The position numbers and the translations under genes were made by a program. A stretch of 64,000 bases of DNA from Alphaproteobacteria bacterium (GTDB lineage: Bacteria > Pseudomonadota > Alphaproteobacteria > Rhodobacterales > Rhodobacteraceae), in contig JAUHVK010000016.1 of NCBI GenBank assembly GCA_030425145.1, positions 1 through 64,000 of the forward strand, written 5' to 3'. The notes under the pieces were generated by a model. The model worked only from the letters and a program-made list of their open reading frames with translations, searched no databases and had not been told where the DNA came from. Below, one piece after another: positions 21,192 through 32,443 of this stretch; the stretch's first letter is position 1, and every line of letters starts with the position of its first letter.

Positions 21192-22502
21192 TCAGTAGCG
21201 GTTGGCGATGGGCAGCTCTTCGGCAGGGAAGAGGCTGATGACTTCGCAACCTGTTTCGGTCACGACGACTTCTTCCTCGATCCGGGCGGCTGAATACCCG
21301 TCCGAAGCTGGGCAGTAGGTTTCGAGCGCAAAGACCATGCCGGTCTGTATCTCCATCGGGTGATCCATGCTGACCGCGCGGGAGATGATGGGCCGTTCAT
21401 GGAGCGCCAGCCCTAGGCCATGGCCGAATTGCAGGCCAAATGCCTGATCTTCGTTGTCAAACCCAAGAGATTGGGCGGTTGGCCAGACTTCGGCGACCTT
21501 GTCGGTGGTCACACCGGGTTTGATCATCGAGATCGACGCGTCGATCCATTCGCGGGCCTTCACATAGGCGTCATTCTGCGCGGGCGTTGCGCGTCCCACG
21601 TTGAAGGTCCGGTAATAGCAGGTCCGATAGCCTTGATAGCTTTGCAGAATGTCAAAGAAGGCCTGATCGCCGGGGCGGATCAAACGGTCGGTGAAGTTGT
21701 GTGGGTGCGGATTGCAGCGTTCGCCGGAAATGGCGTTGATTGCCTCAACATCGTCCGAGCCCATCTCGTAGAGCATCTTGTTGGAGAGCGCGACGATATC
21801 GTTCTCGCGCACGCCCGGTTTCAGCTCTTCGTAGATCATGTGATAGACGCCATCGACCATCGAGGCAGCCTGCGTCAGAAGCTGGATTTCGTCCCAGTTC
21901 TTGATCTCACGCGCGGCCAGCATGATTTGTTGGCCGTCAACAACGTGAATGCCCTCTTCCTGCAGCGCGTGGAACATCGCGGTCTCTGCATAGTCGACGC
22001 CCACAGGCATATCAGCCATGCCCGCATCCTTGATCAGCTGAGCGATCATCTTGGCGTATTTTTTCATCAGGCCGAATTCGGGAGGGATCGTACCGCGCAT
22101 ACCCACAACTCCGGCAAGGCAGTGGTCCGGCTCCAGCCAATCGGAATAGCGTTTGTGGTGCACTGCAGCCGAGCCGAAATCCCAGACGTAGGGGCTGTCA
22201 TCGCCGGTAAGCAGGCAGAACCGGCACATCTTGTCCCGTTCCCATTCGCCGATTTTGGTCGCGGATACGTAGCGGATGTTGTTCACGTCGAACAAAAGCA
22301 GCGACCCGGCATTGGAATTCTGCAGGGACTGCCGCGTGCGGGCCAAACGATAGCGTCGCAGCCTATCGTGGTCGACCCGGCGCTCGAAATCGACAGAGCT
22401 ATGACCCCAGGCAGGGATTTTGTCGCGCCATTCCCAATTGGTTTCAAGATCCTGCGGGGTAAGCAGGTTCGGCATAAGGGCATTGCCCGGACGTTCTGAC
22501 AT
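21192..22502 (-). CDS. M24-fold (creatinase/aminopeptidase/DddP-like) protein with altered metal site
   Basis: A 436-residue protein with the two-domain layout of creatinase, Xaa-Pro peptidases and DMSP lyase DddP. C-terminal pita-bread motifs are GDQAFFDILQSYQG, QFGHGLGLALHERP, ALETYCPAS and ARIEEEVVVTE. The usual second metal Asp (GY-x-x-D-x-T-R-T) is replaced: here GYRTCYYRTF, with Cys. The His of GHGLG and the two late Glu remain. The first metal Asp (FFDI) is present. It could therefore be a hydrolase with an unusual metal site or a non-peptidase such as creatinase. The start at 22502 follows AAAGGAG. It sits in the E1/E2/E3 operon, so a C-N or C-C cleaving step in the pathway is possible. 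Confidence 0.8.
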   Translation of the reverse strand: MSERPGNALMPNLLTPQDLETNWEWRDKIPAWGHSSVDFERRVDHDRLRRYRLARTRQSLQNSNAGSLLLFDVNNIRYVSATKIGEWERDKMCRFCLLTGDDSPYVWDFGSAAVHHKRYSDWLEPDHCLAGVVGMRGTIPPEFGLMKKYAKMIAQLIKDAGMADMPVGVDYAETAMFHALQEEGIHVVDGQQIMLAAREIKNWDEIQLLTQAASMVDGVYHMIYEELKPGVRENDIVALSNKMLYEMGSDDVEAINAISGERCNPHPHNFTDRLIRPGDQAFFDILQSYQGYRTCYYRTFNVGRATPAQNDAYVKAREWIDASISMIKPGVTTDKVAEVWPTAQSLGFDNEDQAFGLQFGHGLGLALHERPIISRAVSMDHPMEIQTGMVFALETYCPASDGYSAARIEEEVVVTETGCEVISLFPAEELPIANRY

Positions 22503-22516
22503 AGGAAACTCCTTTC

Positions 22517-22535
22517 GGGTGCGCCAAGCGCACCC
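22517..22535 (-). other. hairpin upstream of the M24-fold gene
   Basis: GGGTGCGC and GCGCACCC form a perfect eight-base stem with a three-base loop, placed just ahead of the AAAGGAG ribosome site of the M24-fold gene in the SDR-M24 spacer. Confidence 0.4.
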
Positions 22536-22566
22536 GCATGTTTTTAAAAAGCTGGGGGTGAGGGCT

Positions 22567-23376
22567 TTACGTCGTGGCCCAACCGCCATCGATTGAGATC
22601 ATCTGACCGGTCATGTAATCGCTGTCGTCCGATGCGAGGAAAGACGCAGTGCCTACGATATCTTTGGGGTAGGACACGCGCTTTATCACGAGGGCGCCGT
22701 CAACGATATCCTCATAGGCCTGGCCTTCGCGCTCCTTAAAGCCGATCTCGACCAGATCCTTATCCAGCTGTTCCCACAGCGGTGTGACCACCACGCCCGG
22801 CGCATAGCCATTGACGGTGATATTGTGCTCTGCCAGCCCCAGAGCGCCACACTCCGTCAGCGCCAGGCAGCCGTATTTGGAGGTGCAGTAGACCGTCACA
22901 TCAACCAGCGGCTTTTTCGACGCGATAGAGCCGACATTGATCAGTTTGTAGGGGTGATCTTCCATCGGGCCCTGGGCGATCATCTGGCGGGCCACTTCCT
23001 GCATGCCCAGCCACATCGCCTTGGTGTTGACGTTCATGATCATGTCCCAGTTGTCCTCATCGATATCCATGAAGAACCGGGGTTTATTCAGGCCCGCGTT
23101 GAACAGACCCACGTTGATCGACCCGAATGCCTCGACCGTGGCGGCCACGGCGGCAGCATTGTCTGCGCGGCTGGTGACATCCATCCTGACGGCGATCGCC
23201 TTGCCGTTACCCGCTGCATTGATCGCATCGGCAACCTTCTGCGCCTCGTCACCGTCCAGATCGCCCAGACAGACATTCGCGCCCTGGGCGGCAAAGCTTT
23301 CGGCGTTGGCCTGACCCATGCCGCGGGCGGCACCGGTGATGAGAATGTTTTTACCTTTGAGGCGGTTGGGGTCCAT
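22567..23376 (-). CDS. SDR-family dehydrogenase (butanediol dehydrogenase-like)
   Basis: NAD(P)-dependent short-chain dehydrogenase, 269 residues. The coenzyme motif TGAARGMGQANAE lies near the N-terminus, followed by DLDGDEAQ, FNAGLNKP, the catalytic Ser in NVGSIASKKP and Tyr/Lys in YCTSKYG. The C-terminus SDYMTGQMISIDGG is typical of diol and ketone reductases such as acetoin/2,3-butanediol dehydrogenases. It is clearly paralogous to the SDR at 26495-27286 in the divergent operon, sharing the NKP and DSDYMTGQ segments and the DKDLVEIG/DQDLMDIG motif. The two may oxidise two positions or two stereoisomers of one substrate. Confidence 0.9.
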   Translation of the reverse strand: MDPNRLKGKNILITGAARGMGQANAESFAAQGANVCLGDLDGDEAQKVADAINAAGNGKAIAVRMDVTSRADNAAAVAATVEAFGSINVGLFNAGLNKPRFFMDIDEDNWDMIMNVNTKAMWLGMQEVARQMIAQGPMEDHPYKLINVGSIASKKPLVDVTVYCTSKYGCLALTECGALGLAEHNITVNGYAPGVVVTPLWEQLDKDLVEIGFKEREGQAYEDIVDGALVIKRVSYPKDIVGTASFLASDDSDYMTGQMISIDGGWATT

Positions 23377-23394: not shown

Positions 23395-25236
23395 TCACGT
23401 AGACCTATGTTTTTTTATGACTGCGTCCGCGCGCTCCTGAGCGCGACGCAATGTTTCTGACGGTGCGATCAACCCGCGCAGCATGTCGTGGAATTCCTCA
23501 CCACAGATCTGGATGATCTCGGCGATCTCAGGCACAGGAGGACGCGGCCAAAATTGCAGCTCGTCGCGCCACGACATTGCATCGACTGCTTCGAAGATCT
23601 GCGACAGCCGGCGCACATCCGGGTCAGCGCCTACCGAGTAGCGAGGATTGGTGCGGCTGCCGTTTTGCACGAAGAGTTTCTGTGCCTCAGGCGAGGTAAA
23701 GACGCGCAGCGCCTCAACGGCCGCGGGCACACGGTCGGGCGGCAGATTGGCAGGAATGCCCATGATATAGCCGCCAACCGGCGCAATCGGGCTGGCACCT
23801 GGTCCAGCGGGATGAGGCAGATAGCCCGTCTTGCCGTTGGCGGGTGAGTCCTCGTCAAGCTCGAAATACGGCGCAAGCAGAGTGTAGCCATAAGCCATAG
23901 CGATCCGACCCGCCGCGTAGGGTCGCACTCTTTCATACCAGGACATGGACAGGATATCAGGTGGCGAGTATTTCAGAAGTTCCAGGAGAAATTCAGCGGC
24001 ACGCAGGCCCGCATCCGTGTCGATGGTGACGTTGTAGCGCCGATCGGCCAATTGGTCCGTAGCAAAGCCACCCGCGATGCGTGGCAGATCAAAGACCGGC
24101 TGACCAAAGTCGGCAAGCGTCATCAGGACAGTGTGGCCAAGGGCTGTCCCACGCGCAGCATTCCAGGCAATCCCGTGTTGGCCGCTTTGAGGATCGTGCA
24201 AGGCCTTTGCCGCAGCCAAAAGCGCGTCGGTCGTCGCTGGTGGCTCCAACCCGGCTGCCGCAAACAGATCCTTGCGGTAGAACAGAAGCTCCGGCGTTGT
24301 CTGCGCCGGCACACCGTAGGGCCTTCCGCCCCAATGCGCAGCCTGCCAGCCAGCGGTGTGAAAATCGGCAGGGTCGAGACGCGCAACATCCATCGCATCG
24401 TCAAGCGGCATCAGTATCTGGCGATCTGCAAATTCTCCAACCCAGGGGAGGTCGACGGCGATAATATCATACTTACTTGCCTTGCGTTCAGCATTGCGAA
24501 CGGCTTCCTCGTGCAGGCGGTCGATGGAAAAAGCTCGTTGATGGATCTGCGCGCCAATTGATTGTTCAAACTGTCGCTTGAGATTGTCCATCACCATGAA
24601 GGTTGGGTCACCATGAACCAGCACCCGCAAACCACCCGCCAGCTTCAGGGATTCAGACAGTACCTGAAGCGGTGGGATTGAATTGGTGCTCAGATAAGAT
24701 TCGCCAAAGTAGTAATCGCCTGTATCGCCGGGCTTATTTCGCACGCCGAAATGGCCGACAGCCAGTCGGGCAACACGGTTCGAGAGCTGTGCCCATTGCT
24801 CCAAGAGTGCTTCGCTCGGATGCATAGAAAAGCTTTTGCCAGTCTTCGTGCGAGGGCGTTGCTCGATCAGACCCGCCTCGATCATGTCCTTCAGGCGACG
24901 GTTCGCCGTGGCATATGGTACTCGGCTAGCGCCGATCAGAGCGGTGGCAGTGATTGCGCGCCCTTCGAGGTGCCCACGCAATAAAAGAAGGGTCATGCGC
25001 AGGTTAGGATTCGGTGCAGACAGCTCCACCAGATCTTCCAACTCGTCGCCCAACTCCTCAAGAAAGGTGATGATCTGAAGCATCTCGGTCTTGGCCCTCG
25101 GAGGGGTGAACCGGGCTGAGTTACCTCTGTTCATCGCATTCATAGGAACTAGCTTTTTCTTTCTCGCTGACTGTGACGACTGTGCTTTGCGATTACCGCC
25201 AGAAGTATCCATTTTGGACGAATCGGATTTGCCCAT
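23395..25236 (-). CDS. winged-helix regulator fused to a family-1 solute-binding-protein domain
   Basis: A 613-residue protein that appears to be a cytoplasmic sugar sensor. The N-terminus is polar and basic, without a signal peptide. Residues ~50-165 form a winged helix-turn-helix (LLLRGHLEGRAITATALIGA, VPYATANRRLKDMIEAGLI). Residues ~200-600 have the pattern of MalE/SBP_bac_1 periplasmic binding proteins (DIIAVDLPWVGEFADRQILM, YGVPAQTTPELLFYRKDLF, AAVEALRVFTSPEAQKLF). GGAGG precedes the ATG at 25236. It is transcribed divergently from a ribose-type ABC operon and is first in the leftward operon. Ligand-controlled DNA binding at the TATCC-type sites upstream is the likely mechanism. Confidence 0.85.
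   Translation of the reverse strand: MGKSDSSKMDTSGGNRKAQSSQSARKKKLVPMNAMNRGNSARFTPPRAKTEMLQIITFLEELGDELEDLVELSAPNPNLRMTLLLLRGHLEGRAITATALIGASRVPYATANRRLKDMIEAGLIEQRPRTKTGKSFSMHPSEALLEQWAQLSNRVARLAVGHFGVRNKPGDTGDYYFGESYLSTNSIPPLQVLSESLKLAGGLRVLVHGDPTFMVMDNLKRQFEQSIGAQIHQRAFSIDRLHEEAVRNAERKASKYDIIAVDLPWVGEFADRQILMPLDDAMDVARLDPADFHTAGWQAAHWGGRPYGVPAQTTPELLFYRKDLFAAAGLEPPATTDALLAAAKALHDPQSGQHGIAWNAARGTALGHTVLMTLADFGQPVFDLPRIAGGFATDQLADRRYNVTIDTDAGLRAAEFLLELLKYSPPDILSMSWYERVRPYAAGRIAMAYGYTLLAPYFELDEDSPANGKTGYLPHPAGPGASPIAPVGGYIMGIPANLPPDRVPAAVEALRVFTSPEAQKLFVQNGSRTNPRYSVGADPDVRRLSQIFEAVDAMSWRDELQFWPRPPVPEIAEIIQICGEEFHDMLRGLIAPSETLRRAQERADAVIKKHRST
25206..25218. promoter_or_regulatory. TATCC-type operator candidate 1 (inside regulator start)
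   Basis: TATCCATTTTGGA lies within the first codons of the regulator gene. It matches, with two differences, the minus-strand reading of 25314-25326 (TATCCATTTTGAC). A site here would let the regulator block its own gene. Confidence 0.4.
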
Positions 25237-25290
25237 CGGTGCTTGCCTCCGTAAGATGCGAAAGTGGGAGGCCCAAAAGTATCTTAGAAA

Positions 25291-25305
25291 TATCCAAATC
25301 GGATA
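25291..25305. promoter_or_regulatory. TATCC-type operator candidate 2
   Basis: TATCC-AAATC-GGATA is a 15-base inverted repeat in the divergent promoter region, 55 bases upstream of the regulator start codon. It shares the TATCC half-site with the other two candidates. Confidence 0.5.
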
Positions 25306-25313
25306 AAAAAATT

Positions 25314-25333
25314 GTCAAAATGGATACATTTTG
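25314..25333. promoter_or_regulatory. TATCC-type operator candidate 3
   Basis: On the minus strand this reads TATCCATTTTGAC, nearly the same as candidate 1. On the plus strand CAAAAT-GGATAC-ATTTTG (25316-25333) is also an inverted repeat. It lies 23 bases from candidate 2, a little over two helical turns centre to centre, between the two divergent operons. Confidence 0.45.
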
Positions 25334-25451
25334 TGGCGCGATGTTTCTGTCAAACTCGCAGGGTAGCTTCAGTCCACCGGACAATGATTCCCAGCAGGAG
25401 GCGGGAGTCGAATGAATTGAGCTTAGACAAGTTCCTTGGGAGGAAGCCAAA

Positions 25452-26408
25452 ATGAAACTTCGTAGAATTCTTGCGGCCACGACAGCAACGGCGGCAATGA
25501 CCGTCGCCGGAATGGCCGCAGCCGAAACCATGACGATCGGCATCACGCAGAACAACGTTGGGGTCGACAGCTACCAGACCACGTACGAAAAAGCCTTTAT
25601 CGCAGCCGCAGAAGCCAACGCAGACGTCGAAGTCGTCGTCCTGGACGCAGGTGGTGACGTTGCCCGCCAGATCGCTCAGATGGAAGACCTGATCCAGCAA
25701 GAAGTTGACGCGATCATCATCTGGCCAACAAACGGCGAAGCCGTGATACCCGCAGTTCGCAAGGCGCATCAGGCTGGCATTCCAGTTGTCGTGACCAACT
25801 CGAACATCGCCGAGGCAGGTTTCCCGTTCGTTTCGACGTTCTCTGGCCCGGACAACATCACACAAGGCGCCCGTTCCGCCGAAATCATGTGTGATCGCTT
25901 CAAGGCATTGGGCATCGAGAACGAAGCAAAGGTCGTGCACATCACGGGCCAGCCGGGCTACACGACCGCCATCGAGCGGGCCAAGGGCTTCAACGATCGT
26001 CTGCCCGAAGTCTGTCCGAACGTTGAACAGATCGACGAGCAGCCAGGCGACTGGAACCGCGAAAAGTCGCAGCAGGTCATGGAGGCCTTCCTCGTCAAGT
26101 ATGACGACATTGACGGTGTTTATTCCGGTGACGACAACATGGGCGTTGGCGCAATGAACGCTGCCATCGCAGCGGGCCGCGAAGGCATCACCTTCGTTGG
26201 CGCAACCAACTTCGCAGTTGGTTATGAGGCAATGGCCGCAGGCACCTACTGGGGGTCAATCTACCAGTCACCTGTTGATGACGCCGAAGCCGCGCTGAAG
26301 TCCGCGATTGACCTGCTCAACGGTGAAGAACTGCCGTTCCTGAACTACTTCGACACACCGAAGATCACTCAGGACAACATGGGCGACTTCACCAAGCCCG
26401 TCTTCTAA
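25452..26408 (+). CDS. sugar ABC transporter periplasmic binding protein (RbsB type)
   Basis: Periplasmic ligand-binding component of a ribose/autoinducer-type (CUT2) importer. A signal peptide is evident (residues 1-24: MKLRR, hydrophobic stretch, cleavage near AAAET). The mature protein has the peripla_BP_4 pattern: TIGITQNNVGVDSYQT, QMEDLIQQEVDAIIIWPTNG, VVVTNSNIAEAG, then ITGQPGYTTAIERAKGF, VYSGDDNMGVGAM and a C-terminal GTYWGSIYQSP. The length of 318 residues is normal. AGGAAG lies before the ATG. A strong hairpin follows, so this gene is probably expressed above the rest of the operon. The ligand is not identifiable. Confidence 0.92.
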   Translation: MKLRRILAATTATAAMTVAGMAAAETMTIGITQNNVGVDSYQTTYEKAFIAAAEANADVEVVVLDAGGDVARQIAQMEDLIQQEVDAIIIWPTNGEAVIPAVRKAHQAGIPVVVTNSNIAEAGFPFVSTFSGPDNITQGARSAEIMCDRFKALGIENEAKVVHITGQPGYTTAIERAKGFNDRLPEVCPNVEQIDEQPGDWNREKSQQVMEAFLVKYDDIDGVYSGDDNMGVGAMNAAIAAGREGITFVGATNFAVGYEAMAAGTYWGSIYQSPVDDAEAALKSAIDLLNGEELPFLNYFDTPKITQDNMGDFTKPVF

Positions 26409-26494: not shown

Positions 26495-27286
26495 ATGGGT
26501 CGAGTCTCTGGTCGGTCGTGCATTGTGACCGGTGCGGCACAAGGTATTGGACGCGCTATTGCGGAGGCACTGTTGGACGAGGGCGCCAGCGTCTGTTTCG
26601 CAGACTTAAATGGCAAGAAGGTTGCAGAGATCGCGGATCTGAACCGGTCAGCGCACGGCGAAAGCCGGGTAACGCATACCCAGGTTGATGTGACAGACCG
26701 CGAAACCGTCCGCGCCATGATTGACCATACAGTCGCGACATTTGGCAAACTGGATGTGAATTTCAATAATGCCGGCGTCAACAAGCCCATGAATTTTCTC
26801 GATGTGACCGAAGAGAACTGGCGCTTTATCAACGATGTAAACGGTCTTGGTTGTCTTATCGGGATGCAGGAAGCGGCAAAGCAGTTTATCCGCCAGGGCA
26901 CGTTCGGAAAGATCATCAACACCGCCTCGATCGCGTCGCGGCAAGGCTTTGACAACGTAGCCCCCTATTGCGCTTCAAAGTTTGGCGTTGTTGCGCTGAC
27001 GCAATCTGGTGCACGGGATCTGGCGAAACATAACATCACCGTAACCGGTTTTGCGCCCGGTGTTGTTGACACCGAAATGTGGGCGCAGGTCGATCAGGAT
27101 CTGATGGACATTGGAGCAGCCGAACGACCGGGACAGGCGATGGAAGAGTTTTCAGCGGATATCCTGAAAGGCCGGGTGGCTAAGCCGCAAGATATCACAG
27201 GTACGACAACGTTTTTGGCCGCGCCTGACAGTGACTACATGACAGGCCAGATCGTTATGATCGATGGGGGAATGACGTTGGTTTGA
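26495..27286 (+). CDS. SDR-family dehydrogenase, second paralogue
   Basis: NAD(P)-dependent oxidoreductase, 263 residues. TGAAQGIGRAIAEAL is the coenzyme motif; FNNAGVNKP, the catalytic Ser in NTASIASRQG and the YCASKFG Tyr/Lys pair are present; the C-terminus is SDYMTGQIVMIDGG. It resembles the SDR at 22567-23376 along its whole length but is encoded in the opposite operon, inserted between the binding protein and the permeases. An oxidoreductase placed inside the transport operon points to direct oxidation of the imported sugar or polyol. Confidence 0.9.
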   Translation: MGRVSGRSCIVTGAAQGIGRAIAEALLDEGASVCFADLNGKKVAEIADLNRSAHGESRVTHTQVDVTDRETVRAMIDHTVATFGKLDVNFNNAGVNKPMNFLDVTEENWRFINDVNGLGCLIGMQEAAKQFIRQGTFGKIINTASIASRQGFDNVAPYCASKFGVVALTQSGARDLAKHNITVTGFAPGVVDTEMWAQVDQDLMDIGAAERPGQAMEEFSADILKGRVAKPQDITGTTTFLAAPDSDYMTGQIVMIDGGMTLV

Positions 27287-27361: not shown

Positions 27362-28336
27362 ATGGCGGAGTCAACGAAGCAGGATATCGGAAAGCTGCTG
27401 GCGAAGCAGGGCATCCTGATCGCCTTCGCACTTTTCATAATCGGATTCACAATTGCCAACCCGAAATTTCTGACTCTCGACAATTTCGAGAACGTTGTTA
27501 GGTCCTCGGCAATTCTGGGGGTGATGGCCTTGGGAGTCACCTTCGTCGTGATCAGCGGCAATCTGGATCTCTCTGTCGGGTCAATGATGTCATTCTCGAC
27601 CATCGTTGTTCTTGATCTTCACGACAAACTGGGTCCGACCCTTGCGATCCCCGCCATGTTCGCGATGACGCTCTGCCTGGGGGCGCTCATCGGGTTCCTT
27701 GTCGGCTATCTCAAGCTCAATTCCCTGATTGTGACTCTGGGTATGCTGTCGGCAATCCACGGGCTGACGCTGACCTATTCAGGCGGCAAGAACATGGACA
27801 TTGCTGACAAGGAAGGGACCTGGTTTGCCATCTTCGGGCAGGGTAACATCCTCGGAATCCAGACGCCTATTCTGATCTTCATCGCGCTGGCGGCTTTGCT
27901 GGGGATCATCTTGGCCAAGACGCCTTTCGGGCGAAAGGTCTACGCGGTAGGCGGCAACGGTACGGCGGCGACCTTCTCGGGGATCCGGCGCGCGCGCGTC
28001 GTTTTTCTGTGCTATATCATGTCTGCGCTTTGTGTGGCGACGGCAGGCTTGATTCAGGCGAGCCGCTCCATGGGATCACAAAACACCGTCGGGCAGGGTC
28101 TGGAGCTTGAAGTGTTGGCCGCTGTCATTCTTGGCGGCGCGTCGCTGCTGGGTGGATCGGGGACGATCTTCAAGACAGTGATCGGCGTTCTGATCCTTGG
28201 ATTTATTCAGAATGGCCTTTTGCTGGTCGGGCTCGACTTCTCGGTTCAGTACGTTGTGACCTGGATCATCATCATCCTTGCAGTCTGGCTCGATATTGCA
28301 GCCAAACGCGGCAAGCTCATGTCGCCGATCGCGTAA
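27362..28336 (+). CDS. ribose-type ABC transporter permease (first)
   Basis: Membrane subunit of the CUT2-type importer, 324 residues with about eight to ten hydrophobic segments. Family blocks are SSAILGVMALGVTFVVISGN followed by LDLSVGSMMS, and the C-terminal EVLAAVILGGASLLGGSGT. GGGAGG precedes the ATG at 27362. It pairs with the next permease to form a heterodimeric channel, each binding one half of the ATPase. Confidence 0.93.
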   Translation: MAESTKQDIGKLLAKQGILIAFALFIIGFTIANPKFLTLDNFENVVRSSAILGVMALGVTFVVISGNLDLSVGSMMSFSTIVVLDLHDKLGPTLAIPAMFAMTLCLGALIGFLVGYLKLNSLIVTLGMLSAIHGLTLTYSGGKNMDIADKEGTWFAIFGQGNILGIQTPILIFIALAALLGIILAKTPFGRKVYAVGGNGTAATFSGIRRARVVFLCYIMSALCVATAGLIQASRSMGSQNTVGQGLELEVLAAVILGGASLLGGSGTIFKTVIGVLILGFIQNGLLLVGLDFSVQYVVTWIIIILAVWLDIAAKRGKLMSPIA

Positions 28337-28348
28337 GGGGGGAAGAAC

Positions 28349-29350
28349 ATGCAAGTTGGAAAACTCTCGAAATACTTGGCGGGTGGCGCCATCTGGGGCT
28401 TCATCGTTCTTGAGCTGATCTTCTTCTCGGTTGCCGGTGAGTTCTTCTCGGTCAGTGACAAAGCCTTCATGGACGCTGACAACATGCTGTTGTTGCTGAA
28501 ACAGTCGGCACCCATCGGGATCATCGCCATGGGGATGACCATTGTCATGGTCAACGGCAACATCGATCTGTCGGTCGGGGCGATTTATGCGATTTGCGCC
28601 ATTATCCTGCTGGATTCGATGACTTGGACGATGTTCGCGGGCCTTGGAAACTGGGTCATTCCTGTGGCCTGGTGCCTCGCGCTCCTGACGGGTCTCGTTC
28701 TCGGCGCGATCAATGGATTGATCGTGTGGAAGACCGGGGTAGATGCCTTTATCGTGACGCTTGGTTCCATGCTGGGCTATCGCGGGCTGGTCTTCATGTA
28801 CAACGGAGAGCAGCCGACAAGCCATCTGAACTGGACACTGGTTGATTTTGCCGAGGCGCAATTCCTTGGCCTCCACACGGCGACTTGGTTCCTGCTGGTT
28901 GTCACCGTGGCGATCTGGTTCCTGATGAACCGCACAGTGCATGGCCGCAACGCCTATGCCATCGGAAACAACCGCGAGGCGGCGGTCAATGCGGGTATCC
29001 GCGTCGGCCCGCATATGATGATCAACTTCATGATCATCGGGTTTCTGGCGGCGCTGTCTGCCGTGGTGTTCTATTCGGAATCCGGTTCCGTGAACCCCAA
29101 CGACGGCCAGCTTTATGAGTTGTGGGTGATCACCGCTGTCGTTCTGGGCGGCACCAAGCTGACTGGTGGGGCAGGTTCGATTGTCTCGACATTCGGGGGT
29201 GTGATCGCGATCCAGCTCTTGCGTAAGGGCCTTGCCCATATCGGCGCTGACACATCCACCGTGAACCTTGTGATCGGTCTGATCCTGATCGCCGTGCTGT
29301 TCCTCGATCGTCAGTTGAACGTGAAAGGCAAAGAGGAGTTGAAGGTATGA
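28349..29350 (+). CDS. ribose-type ABC transporter permease (second)
   Basis: Second membrane subunit, 333 residues. MGMTIVMVNGNIDLSVGAIY and WVITAVVLGGTKLTGGAGS are the family signatures; the N-terminus holds one extra hydrophobic helix. It begins 12 bases after the first permease and its last four bases overlap the ATPase start (ATGA). Two different permeases rather than one duplicated gene are typical of several CUT2 systems. Confidence 0.93.
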   Translation: MQVGKLSKYLAGGAIWGFIVLELIFFSVAGEFFSVSDKAFMDADNMLLLLKQSAPIGIIAMGMTIVMVNGNIDLSVGAIYAICAIILLDSMTWTMFAGLGNWVIPVAWCLALLTGLVLGAINGLIVWKTGVDAFIVTLGSMLGYRGLVFMYNGEQPTSHLNWTLVDFAEAQFLGLHTATWFLLVVTVAIWFLMNRTVHGRNAYAIGNNREAAVNAGIRVGPHMMINFMIIGFLAALSAVVFYSESGSVNPNDGQLYELWVITAVVLGGTKLTGGAGSIVSTFGGVIAIQLLRKGLAHIGADTSTVNLVIGLILIAVLFLDRQLNVKGKEELKV

Positions 29351-30876
29351 CCGAGATCATTGATCAAACCACCCCCACCCCCGTCCTGCGGCTGGAAGAC
29401 ATCGTTAAAACCTTTCCCGGCGTGCGTGCCCTTGATGGCGTCTCGCTGACCATTCTGCCTGGCGAAGTCCATGCCCTTATGGGCGAAAACGGCGCCGGCA
29501 AGTCAACCCTGATGAAGGTGCTTGGAGGCATTCACCAACCCGACGAAGGCCAGATCATCGTTGCAGAACAACCGGTGGTCATGTCCGGCCCGCTCGACGC
29601 GAAGGCCAAAGGCATCGTCTTCATTCACCAGGAACTCAGCCTCGCGGATGAACTTTCCGTGGCCGAGAATATCTATCTGGGTGAATTGCCACACAAACGG
29701 TTCGGACTGGTCGACTGGGCCGAACTTGAGGCCAAGACCAACGCGATCCTCGAAAAGCTCAAGGTTGGCTTCAATGCAAAGACCCGCGTCGGCGATCTTT
29801 CGATCGCCAATCAGCAGATGGTCGAAATCGCCCGCGCGCTGACGGTGGATGCCAAAGCTGTGATCTTTGACGAACCGACCGCTTCGCTCACCGATGCTGA
29901 GAAAGTGGTTCTGTTCGAGGTTATTTCCGACCTGCAGGAGCAAGGGGTGGGCATCGCCTACATTTCGCACCGTATGGAAGAGATATTCAAAATCACCGAC
30001 CGCATCAGCGTTCTGCGCGACGGCCAATATCAAGGAACGGTCAACACCGCCGACACAAACGAAGAAAATGTGACGCAGATGATGATCGGCCGCAAGCTCG
30101 ACCTGAGCCGCAACGAAGCCCATCACGAGCTTGGCGAGGTCGCGCTCGAAGTGCGCGGACTGAGCTGTGGCAGTCTTTTCGAAGATGTCAATTTCGAAGT
30201 GCGGCGTGGAGAAGTTGTAGGCTTTTATGGCCTTGTTGGCGCGGGTCGGACTGAAATCGCCGAAACCCTGTTTGGCTTACGGAACCCAACATCCGGCTCC
30301 ATCTTTTTGGATGGTGCCGAGGTGGCGATCACATCGCCCCATGACGCTATTGAGCGGGGTATCTCGCTTGTGCCTGAAGACCGCAAAGGCCAGGGATTGG
30401 TGCTGGGCATGAACTGCCGCGACAACATGACCTTGCCTCAAGTTGATGATCTCAAGGCCGGCCCCTTCGTCGCCGACGGGGCCGAGATCGCAATCTTTGA
30501 TCAATACCGCGACAAGCTCGATATCAGGACACCGGGTTGGAAACAGCTCGTAGGTAACCTCTCGGGTGGCAATCAACAAAAGATCGTCATCGGGAAATGG
30601 CTGTCGATGCGCCCCAATGTGCTTATCGTCGATGAACCGACACGCGGGATCGACGTTGGATCGAAAGCTGAAATTCACAACCTACTTCGAGACCTGGCCG
30701 CCCAGGGTTATGCGGTGATCGTGATCAGCTCGGAAATGCCCGAGGTTCTTCACGTGGCCGACCGCATTGTTGCAATGTATTCGGGTCGGATTATGCGGAC
30801 TTTCACTTCTGAAGAAGTGACGGAGGAAAACCTCATCGCAGCCATATCCGGACTGAACACCGAAAAGGTAGCCTGA
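29347..30876 (+). CDS. ribose-type ABC transporter ATP-binding protein (RbsA type)
   Basis: Double-domain ATPase of the importer, 509 residues. The first half has Walker A GENGAGKST and Walker B VIFDEPTASL; the second half has the typical degenerate P-loop GLVGAGRTE, the signature LSGGNQQK and VLIVDEPTRGIDVG. It ends with ISSEMPEVLHVADRI. Translational overlaps with both neighbours (ATGA upstream, shared base downstream) show tight co-expression. Confidence 0.94.
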   Translation: MTEIIDQTTPTPVLRLEDIVKTFPGVRALDGVSLTILPGEVHALMGENGAGKSTLMKVLGGIHQPDEGQIIVAEQPVVMSGPLDAKAKGIVFIHQELSLADELSVAENIYLGELPHKRFGLVDWAELEAKTNAILEKLKVGFNAKTRVGDLSIANQQMVEIARALTVDAKAVIFDEPTASLTDAEKVVLFEVISDLQEQGVGIAYISHRMEEIFKITDRISVLRDGQYQGTVNTADTNEENVTQMMIGRKLDLSRNEAHHELGEVALEVRGLSCGSLFEDVNFEVRRGEVVGFYGLVGAGRTEIAETLFGLRNPTSGSIFLDGAEVAITSPHDAIERGISLVPEDRKGQGLVLGMNCRDNMTLPQVDDLKAGPFVADGAEIAIFDQYRDKLDIRTPGWKQLVGNLSGGNQQKIVIGKWLSMRPNVLIVDEPTRGIDVGSKAEIHNLLRDLAAQGYAVIVISSEMPEVLHVADRIVAMYSGRIMRTFTSEEVTEENLIAAISGLNTEKVA

Positions 30877-31742
30877 TGCGGGTCGGCTTTGTTGGGCTGG
30901 GACGGATGGGCGCCCTTATGGTGCGCAATTTGGCGCGGTCGGGGCATGACGTAACGCTGTGGAACCGCACCCGCAACAAGGCCGAAGCCTTGGCCAGCGA
31001 ATTGAACTGCGCCGTGGCCGATAGCCCGCGCGCGCTGTCGGACGCGGCGCATGTCGTTGTCACGATGCTGGCCGACGATCCGTCGTCAAAGGCAGTACAC
31101 GCCGGCGAAGATGGCCTTTTTGCCGGATCGACGGAAACCTTCATTGAAATGGGCACGATGAGTCCGGACCACATCGCATGGCTGGCGCAACGGGCTCCTG
31201 CGGGTGCCCGTGTCATCGACGCGCCGGTCTCTGGCGCAACACAGGCCGCCGCCGACGCGCAGCTTCTGATTATGGCGGGCTGCGCGCCGGACGAGGCCGC
31301 CACACTCTCCGCGCTTTTTGATTCCATGGGCAAGCAGACTATTTACCTCGGTGAAACAGGACGTGGCGCTGTGATGAAGCTGTCGGTCAATGCATTAATC
31401 CACGGTATCAATCAAACCTTGGCCGAGGCGATGACTCTGGCCGAGGCGGCGGGCATCGAACCGGACGCGGCCTTTGATGTGATTGAGGCCTCTGCCGCCT
31501 GCGCGCCGATGCTTAAATACCGCCGCCCGATTTACCTCGATGAGGCCGCGCATGACGTGACCTTCACCGTGGCTCTTGCGCGCAAGGATATGGAAGTCAC
31601 TGTCGATCTGGCCCGCAAACTCGGAACCGACATGCCACAGGGGCGAAGCACCTTGGACATCCTGGAAAAGGCGGAATCAGAAGGTTATTCCGCCCGCGAT
31701 ATGGCCTCGATCCTGAACTTTATGAGAGGACAAAATACATGA
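30876..31742 (+). CDS. NAD(P)-dependent beta-hydroxyacid dehydrogenase family protein
   Basis: Member of the 3-hydroxyisobutyrate/tartronate-semialdehyde/6-phosphogluconate dehydrogenase family, 288 residues. The N-terminal Rossmann motif is GFVGLGRMGALMVRNLARSG; the substrate loop DAPVSGATQAA and the catalytic lysine helix GAVMKLSVNALIHGINQTL are present. It would oxidise a beta-hydroxy acid or reduce a semialdehyde. It starts directly at the end of the ATPase gene and overlaps the next gene by four bases. The substrate is unknown. Confidence 0.88.
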   Translation: MRVGFVGLGRMGALMVRNLARSGHDVTLWNRTRNKAEALASELNCAVADSPRALSDAAHVVVTMLADDPSSKAVHAGEDGLFAGSTETFIEMGTMSPDHIAWLAQRAPAGARVIDAPVSGATQAAADAQLLIMAGCAPDEAATLSALFDSMGKQTIYLGETGRGAVMKLSVNALIHGINQTLAEAMTLAEAAGIEPDAAFDVIEASAACAPMLKYRRPIYLDEAAHDVTFTVALARKDMEVTVDLARKLGTDMPQGRSTLDILEKAESEGYSARDMASILNFMRGQNT

Positions 31743-32443
31743 AAGCTGTTCTTTTTGTAGGAGGGTGGGAAGGCCATGCTCCTATGGATTTCGCGGATTG
31801 GTATCGCGATCTGCTTCAGGAGAACGGGTTTGAGGTTGTCATCCATGACACGCTGGAGCCACTGGAACATCCCCAGGAAATGGCGGACGTCGATCTGATC
31901 ACCCCGATCTGGTCGTCCGCGCGCTCTGGGCACAAAGAAGAGTTTGGCAATATGACCAAGCCACAAGAGGATGGCCTCCTTAAGCTCATCGGCGATGGCT
32001 GTGGACTTGCCGGCTGGCATGGCCATATGGGCGATGCGTTTCGCGACCGTCCGACCTATCACTTCCTGATCGGCGGCCAATTCGTCGCCCACCCCCCCGG
32101 CTGGCCCGACAACCTCCAGCCCAAAGAAGACTATATTGATTATGACGTGACGATCTGCCAGCCGGATCACCCGCTTGTCAAAGGCATCCGCAGTTTCCGC
32201 ATTACATCAGAGCAATATTACATGCTCACGGACCCGTCGAACAACGTACTCGCGACGACGACCTTTTCAGGTGACCACCTTTGGTGGATTGAGGGGACCG
32301 TTATACCCGTCACTTGGACACGTCGTTGGGACAGGGGGCGGGTGTTCTACTGTTCGATCGGGCATGAACTGGATGATCTCAAGGTTCCTGAAGTGACCGA
32401 GATGATCCGGCGTGGCGCGGTTTGGGCTGCGAGCAAAACTTAA
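31739..32443 (+). CDS. ThuA-domain protein
   Basis: A 234-residue protein of the ThuA family, a glutamine-amidotransferase-like fold often found with sugar-utilisation operons (first described in trehalose utilisation). Visible segments are AVLFVGGWEGHAPMDFADWY, GLAGWHGHMGDAFRDRPTYH, PLVKGIRSFRITSEQYYML and VIPVTWTRRWDRGRVFYCSI. There is no signal peptide. The biochemical role of ThuA proteins is not settled; a role in sugar oxidation or isomerisation is suggested by context. It is the last gene of the rightward operon. Confidence 0.88.
   Translation: MKAVLFVGGWEGHAPMDFADWYRDLLQENGFEVVIHDTLEPLEHPQEMADVDLITPIWSSARSGHKEEFGNMTKPQEDGLLKLIGDGCGLAGWHGHMGDAFRDRPTYHFLIGGQFVAHPPGWPDNLQPKEDYIDYDVTICQPDHPLVKGIRSFRITSEQYYMLTDPSNNVLATTTFSGDHLWWIEGTVIPVTWTRRWDRGRVFYCSIGHELDDLKVPEVTEMIRRGAVWAASKT

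Follow-up and report, generated by a model that had tools for sequence, protein, structure and literature searches.

The gene at positions 23395–25236 on the minus strand of the window (the whole 64,000-nt stretch of DNA analysed here) encodes a 613-aa protein in which a predicted MarR-fold winged helix precedes an SBP_bac_1 sensor domain, with no recognisable signal peptide. We consider it likely that this protein works as a ligand-responsive one-component regulator whose sensor is derived from a CUT1 importer's binding protein and whose target is the neighbouring CUT2 importer, and which probably regulates its own gene as well. Its reading frame opens with an ATG codon, and reading of the sequence placed a GGAGG motif at 25246–25250, 9 nt 5' of the start.

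A Pfam scan of the regulator protein matched residues 252–520 to SBP_bac_1 with an E value of 8.8e-29 and a score of 101.9 bits, which reached the curated cut-off of 26, and SBP_bac_8 was also matched above its cut-off (E 1.4e-21). Based on Pfam, PDB sequence matches and the structural model, we delimited this sensor domain to residues ~203–611 (23404–24630, minus strand). The best sequence match among solved structures was 5iai, the Agrobacterium sugar-binding protein Arad_9887, which aligned with residues 203–603 at an E value of 8.1e-32, or 2.9e-58 when the family profile was used. The binding proteins of CUT1 importers, including 5iai, the trehalose/maltose-binding protein 1eu8 and 4rya, are homologous to the sensor over its whole length; the ligands of 5iai, 4rsm and 4rs3 are presumably polyols. 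The full-length AlphaFold2 model had a middling mean pLDDT of 64.6, and a Foldseek search with it returned 5iai and other family-1 binding proteins as the top PDB matches. The alignment behind this first model (A2) comprised 28 of the 80 loci. Some loci were left out on account of a stop in their stretch, including L058 and L071, which have open frames of 606 and 609 aa. The family-1 binding-protein domain that the preliminary description had read from the C-terminal part was thus recovered by both sequence and model, and a non-binding-protein fold in its place did not appear.

The N-terminal DNA-binding unit (residues ~48–163; 24748–25095, minus strand) was delimited on AlphaFold2 models as a long helix, a winged helix (~77–140) and a long C-terminal helix. 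In a separate AlphaFold2 model of residues 49–196, the winged-helix block had pLDDT values of ~87–96 and was flanked by two long helices, in agreement with the N-terminal winged helix proposed earlier. PDB matches of this model were weak (E 6.2e-4 to 2e-3, TM ~0.4–0.5) and were led by the MarR family, namely MexR, HcaR, PefR and MarR. In Pfam, MarR_2 was matched at residues 83–130 below its cut-off (E 0.0014; 19.2 bits against 27), with further sub-threshold matches to HTH_24 and TrmB (E about 0.045 each), and six of the 11 members of A4 matched MarR_2 at E ≤ 0.01. The curated Pfam score for MarR was therefore missed, while the AlphaFold2 model has the winged-helix fold with flanking helices of that family. 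A linker at residues ~159–200 (24637–24762, minus strand), modelled partly at low confidence, carries a conserved DYYFG-SY motif. Taken from sequence and model, the sensor is of the MalE/CUT1 type and the DNA-binding unit is most like MarR; a dimer formed through the N-terminal unit is to be expected.

The gene facing the regulator, at 25452–26408 on the plus strand, encodes an RbsB-type (CUT2) substrate-binding protein (Peripla_BP_4, E 3.7e-53), so the divergent sugar importer operon with its own RbsB-type protein is arranged as had been described. It is followed on the same strand by an SDR dehydrogenase resembling acetoin/polyol (iditol) dehydrogenases (26495–27286), by the CUT2 importer (27362–30876), consisting of permeases at 27362–28336 and 28349–29350 and a double ATPase at 29347–30876, and by a HIBADH-like reductase (30876–31742) and a ThuA-domain protein (31739–32443) that together occupy 30876–32443. 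Directly behind the regulator on the minus strand (21192–23376) are another SDR (22567–23376) and an M24-family protein (21192–22589) that resembles the DMSP lyase DddP at 122 bits against an NCBIfam cut-off of 600, and beyond the M24 gene lie PDH-like E1/E2/E3 genes and then an SSADH-like aldehyde dehydrogenase. These enzymes (the acetoin/iditol dehydrogenase-like SDR, PDH-like E1/E2, the SSADH-like protein and the DddP-like M24 protein) did not indicate any single substrate. Before the importer operon, a GC-rich, partly conserved stretch at 25380–25440 (CCCGCCTCC...GGGAATCAT, minus strand) could, from its sequence, form a hairpin leader.

To evaluate how widely this arrangement is kept, we used 88 ortholog regions, obtained from 97 loci of at least 60% identity by removing near-duplicates; they include the window and are mutually related, so that they do not count as independent cases. 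The fusion lay divergent from a CUT2 binding-protein gene in all 88 distinct loci, a pairing for which the preliminary description had proposed a survey. Where the flank was long enough, the ATPase was kept in 75 of 75 orthologs, the SDR behind the regulator in 86 of 86 and the M24 gene in 72 of 73; E1-alpha was present in 43 of 65. Among distant relatives, those of Skermanella and Shinella face a sugar-binding-protein gene accompanied by CUT2-like permease and ATPase genes, and that of the betaproteobacterium Paraburkholderia faces a sugar-binding-protein gene, with no importer permease in the stretch examined. A Peripla_BP_4 protein, assigned by Pfam, is likewise faced in L152 (a 1.4-Mb genome of the same class) and L153 (a genome outside the class), where the permeases and ATPases were assigned by reading; in G541, a genome outside the class, it is a CUT2-type binding-protein gene that the fused gene faces. 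Two relatives are not directly divergent: in Loktanella (L034) dehydrogenase genes separate the fused gene from the importer, and on the Agrobacterium plasmid pAtCFBP6626a (L032) the fused gene points the same way as its neighbours, CUT2 genes preceding it and CUT1 genes following it. The CUT1 set of L032 is complete, with its own secreted-type binding protein, which would make it a good place to compare the ligands of sensor and transporter. In L152, SDR and sugar-isomerase-like genes lie near the CUT2-type operon that the regulator faces. The nearest relative in named records, on the 60.9-kb plasmid pP92_e of Phaeobacter inhibens, has the same gene cluster with a regulator of 93.6% identity, and by this analogy the window's cluster may be plasmid-borne.

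This neighbourhood bears on which signal the regulator would sense. Since the sensor is of the CUT1 and the importer of the CUT2 binding-protein class, their ligands need not match, and the signal might instead be an unrelated cytoplasmic metabolite that couples the catabolic cluster to general carbon status; according to PMC13060122, glutamate is bound by SgrR, a regulator with a binding-protein-type sensor. We regard this explanation as rather unlikely, as the pairing of the regulator with the CUT2 gene (88/88) and with the SDR (86/86) better fits a pathway-specific signal.

Between the regulator and the divergent CUT2 binding-protein gene lies a 15-bp palindrome, TATCCAnnnTGGATA. Predicted operator box 1 (TATCCAAATCGGATA, 25291–25305) has one mismatch to TATCCANNNTGGATA, box 2 (25312–25326), 21 bp from the first, has three, and box 3 (25206–25220), within codons 6–11 of the regulator gene, has two, which confirmed the presence of the TATCC sites reported before. 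The motif was drawn up by visual inspection of sequences that included the window. Allowing at most one mismatch, TCCANNNTGGA was found at 211 sites in 86 of the 88 ortholog upstream regions, compared with a mean of 13.25 and a maximum of 18 after shuffling and with 4 in a coding control. Successive sites were most commonly spaced by 21 bp (56 cases), and a 21-bp pair, with two mismatches allowed in one site, was present in 85 of 88 regions against a mean of 0.05 and a maximum of 1 in 20 shuffles. In the intergenic alignment TATCCA...TGGATA occurs twice, and these are, with the ribosome-binding sites, among the best conserved blocks. The third, downstream box was found with at most one mismatch in only 49 of 88 orthologs. 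MarR regulators, too, have palindromic operators between divergent genes.

A single box lacked specificity when larger sequences were searched. The window has 18 matches at up to three mismatches where 10.9 were expected. When one mismatch was allowed, the 15-mer had a single occurrence in the 4.9-Mb genome, at 25291–25305, and a reversed control pattern also had one; at up to two mismatches there were 58 places against 52 for the control pattern. Box matches also occurred in 54 of 61 related genomes, irrespective of the fused gene, and were about as numerous as those of the control. Genome-wide uniqueness was therefore dropped as support, because a single box is at background level in the controls, and it is conservation, pairing and position that speak for the operator. 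The outlying L146 (genome G541, outside the class) has a perfect box and another at a distance of 21 bp, where 0.21 matches were expected. A core match (≥7 of 8) was absent from 11 of 19 diverged fused genes within the stretch tested, and three of the other eight (L020, L033 and L035) have a single weak match, indicating that the TATCCAnnnTGGATA operator is confined to part of the family. On the regulator's strand, TTGACA-N18-GATATT (25289–25318) resembles a promoter by match to the consensus only; it overlaps boxes 1 and 2 and would fit self-repression, and a second promoter-like match on the other strand overlaps the start of the importer gene.

We infer DNA binding, dimerisation, a ligand response, the sign of regulation and the path of signal transfer as follows. 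The protein would dimerise through its N-terminal unit and bind the TATCCAnnnTGGATA boxes, of which the two spaced by 21 bp would be exposed on one side of the DNA helix, making cooperative binding by two dimers possible, while the third box, in the regulator's own first codons, may aid self-repression. The candidate signal is a small sugar, polyol or hydroxyketone imported by the CUT2 system, or an early breakdown product of it. Binding of such a ligand would close the binding-protein domain and alter the winged helices, so that the protein would be released or repositioned and the importer and catabolic genes induced. The importer class from which the sensor would descend (CUT1) would then differ from that of the importer it controls (CUT2).

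It is also conceivable that the protein regulates the locus through a binding-protein domain that has ceased to sense small molecules and instead oligomerises, or docks to the importer or another protein. MalT and MalK are the comparison case for sensing by docking to an importer. Some fused members do have a very divergent sensor, such as L035 (26% identity), and L035 and the members from the 1.4-Mb genomes sit on long branches of the sensor tree described below. Nevertheless, the binding-protein core residues N359, W433, G488 and G489 are invariant across 18 diverse fused members and are shared with the secreted relative L027, and mean column identity in the sensor (84%, 72 orthologs) exceeds that of the N-terminal unit (71%, 71 orthologs). 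Given this conservation, we hold this alternative to be improbable, more so than an unrelated metabolite as signal, and favour a ligand-responsive sensor.

We then considered where the protein resides and whether the fusion is intact. The most hydrophobic 19-residue stretch within the first 90 residues had a mean of 0.59, compared with 1.62 in the lone relative L027. Kyte-Doolittle values alone did not separate regulator from substrate-binding protein (15-residue means: median 1.69 and minimum 0.03 for the binding-protein N-termini, median 1.27 and maximum 1.83 for the whole regulator), and mechanically picked start codons inflated the N-terminal hydrophobicity of some loci (L041, 2.21; L104, 1.77), so run length was used instead. 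Within residues 32–99 of the regulator, none of the 88 orthologs had a run lacking charged and amide side chains that was longer than 11, and the median of the longest runs was 6. For the N-terminal 40 residues of the divergent RbsB-type protein the median was 19, and the lowest value, 5, came from one locus. By hydrophobicity and run length, no signal segment was recognised in the regulator N-terminus in any of the 88 orthologs; export was therefore ruled out with the secreted protein as control, and the regulator should be cytoplasmic, as the missing signal peptide had already implied. Whereas CUT1 binding proteins are exported and serve importers, this protein has a DNA-binding unit at the place of the signal peptide, and the importer adjacent to it is CUT2 rather than CUT1, which does not fit a working transport protein.

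A tblastn search with the fused core gave 112 matching loci. The fusion, defined as a match from residue ≤120 to ≥595 within a single open frame, was present in 108 of them, with frames of 574 codons or more. Of the remaining loci, three are lone substrate-binding proteins (L027 and the near-identical L002 and L025, which come from two genomes), and in the last, L078, the contig ends inside the gene. The C-terminal part encoded by L078 (Candidatus Endobugula sertula, MDLC01000111.1) shares 96% identity with the window's regulator, and this is perhaps a roseobacter contig misassigned to the symbiont assembly. Split genes and an annotation artefact were ruled out by the 108 single-frame loci, and none of the orthologs examined showed a signal segment or was encoded as two genes, either of which would have spoken against the fusion. 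Although plasmid records mostly label the regulator 'extracellular solute-binding protein', a periplasmic or misannotated binding protein, or an erroneous fusion of two genes, is hardly credible in view of the missing hydrophobic signal segment, the one open frame and the conserved paired palindromes.

To trace the origin of the fusion, we built a tree from the sensor domains of 53 fused proteins together with six lone substrate-binding proteins, after removal of seven duplicate rows; it includes 13 of the 80 named loci. All fused sensors fell on one side of a branch whose support, 94/83 with recovery in 96% of 200 bootstrap trees, narrowly misses the star given by the program. L027, which has a signal-peptide-like start and is neighboured by permease genes of the CUT1 type and ATPase genes of the MalK type (Pfam confirmed one of each), adjoins the fused group, and the lone binding proteins, like L035 and the 1.4-Mb genomes, are on long branches. 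The tree suggests a single fusion event, and the position next to the secreted L027 suggests a sensor derived from the binding protein of a CUT1 importer.

Of 425 relatives, 80 were retained as loci. Fused genes were found in 17 of the 61 genomes of the relatives search, and in at least eight of 385 genomes of the class and at least six of 398 of the phylum, the window's own being included each time; the latter two counts are lower bounds because at most 10 and at most three candidates per genome, respectively, were scored. At least 80% of the protein was matched in one place in 34 plasmid records, and fused regulators were also found outside the class. The 1.4-Mb genomes, which belong to one family (L121–L123 and L152), retain a divergent 561-aa fused regulator. 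L023, L024, L139 and L150 form another fused clade, in which the 450 nt upstream contain no core palindrome, and L023 and L024 (39% identity) have a CUT2-binding-protein-like gene just downstream on the opposite strand. A related C-terminal MarR-like winged helix (E 5e-13 to 7e-9) was found in 16 alphaproteobacterial loci (L124–L140 except L139) encoding proteins of ~160–360 aa; of three that were scanned, two have an N-terminal receiver domain and L135 is a lone winged helix. In receiver-domain proteins such as L124 and L126 the winged helix is thus related to the regulator's, but its partner is different, so that, to judge from these sequences, the winged-helix unit has been shuffled more than once. 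On the wider proposal of a widespread regulator family with one origin, in which a MarR-type unit took the place of a CUT1 binding protein's signal peptide and pairing with CUT2 genes came later, so that the ligand of one pathway would be served by two unrelated binding-protein folds, type I outside the cell and type II inside it, our judgement is evenly balanced.

Comparison with known systems places the regulator outside several established families. LacI/GalR proteins are one-component sugar regulators with a sensor akin to the binding protein of an importer, and LacI combines an RbsB-type (type I) fold with a LacI HTH. The window regulator likewise has a sensor related to an importer binding protein, but it is SBP_bac_1 joined to a MarR-fold winged helix; LacI membership was rejected since Pfam matched only SBP_bac_1/8, MarR_2, HTH_24 and TrmB and neither a Peripla_BP sensor nor a LacI HTH. 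MexR, HcaR and MarR share the winged helix with flanking long helices seen in the regulator's model, whereas the MarR chains matched are ~130–165 residues long and have no separate sensor domain. Among the titles and abstract openings listed in searches of the open-access literature, we found no description of a fusion between SBP_bac_1 and a MarR-type winged helix. Fusions of a GntR-type HTH with SBP_bac_1 may exist.

The closest precedent is the SgrR family, in which the winged helix is SgrR_N and the sensor, SBP_bac_5, also has a type II fold. Membership in this family was rejected, as neither SBP_bac_5 nor SgrR_N was matched at E ≤ 0.1 in the Pfam scan. According to PMC13060122, SgrR and Vibrio DsvR consist of an N-terminal HTH and a C-terminal SBP_bac_5 domain, and E. 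coli SgrR represses its own gene and has SgrS, SgrT and SetA as targets. As far as that account goes, SgrR and DsvR resemble the window regulator in carrying an HTH and a solute-binding domain on one chain without a signal peptide, but differ from it in their sensor, SBP_bac_5 in place of SBP_bac_1/8, and in that the SgrR targets given there include no CUT2 operon while the window regulator's family is steadily partnered with CUT2 genes. The preliminary description had called a MalE-type fold unusual as a sensor; an SBP_bac_1 sensor was indeed found, yet SgrR and DsvR, with SBP_bac_5, already set a precedent (PMC13060122). On that basis an internal binding-protein sensor is already known, and it is the SBP_bac_1 and MarR-type make-up and the partnership with CUT2 importers that differ.

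The label 'extracellular solute-binding protein' conceals a regulator and points to the wrong cell compartment, and the family might yield new switches that respond to sugars or polyols. With predicted operators, a predicted regulon and a divergent importer, the system can be used to study how clamshell closure would drive a MarR-type winged helix. It would represent a further case, after SgrR, of an exported-type binding protein turned into an internal sensor, and one for which a secreted relative, L027, is available for comparison.
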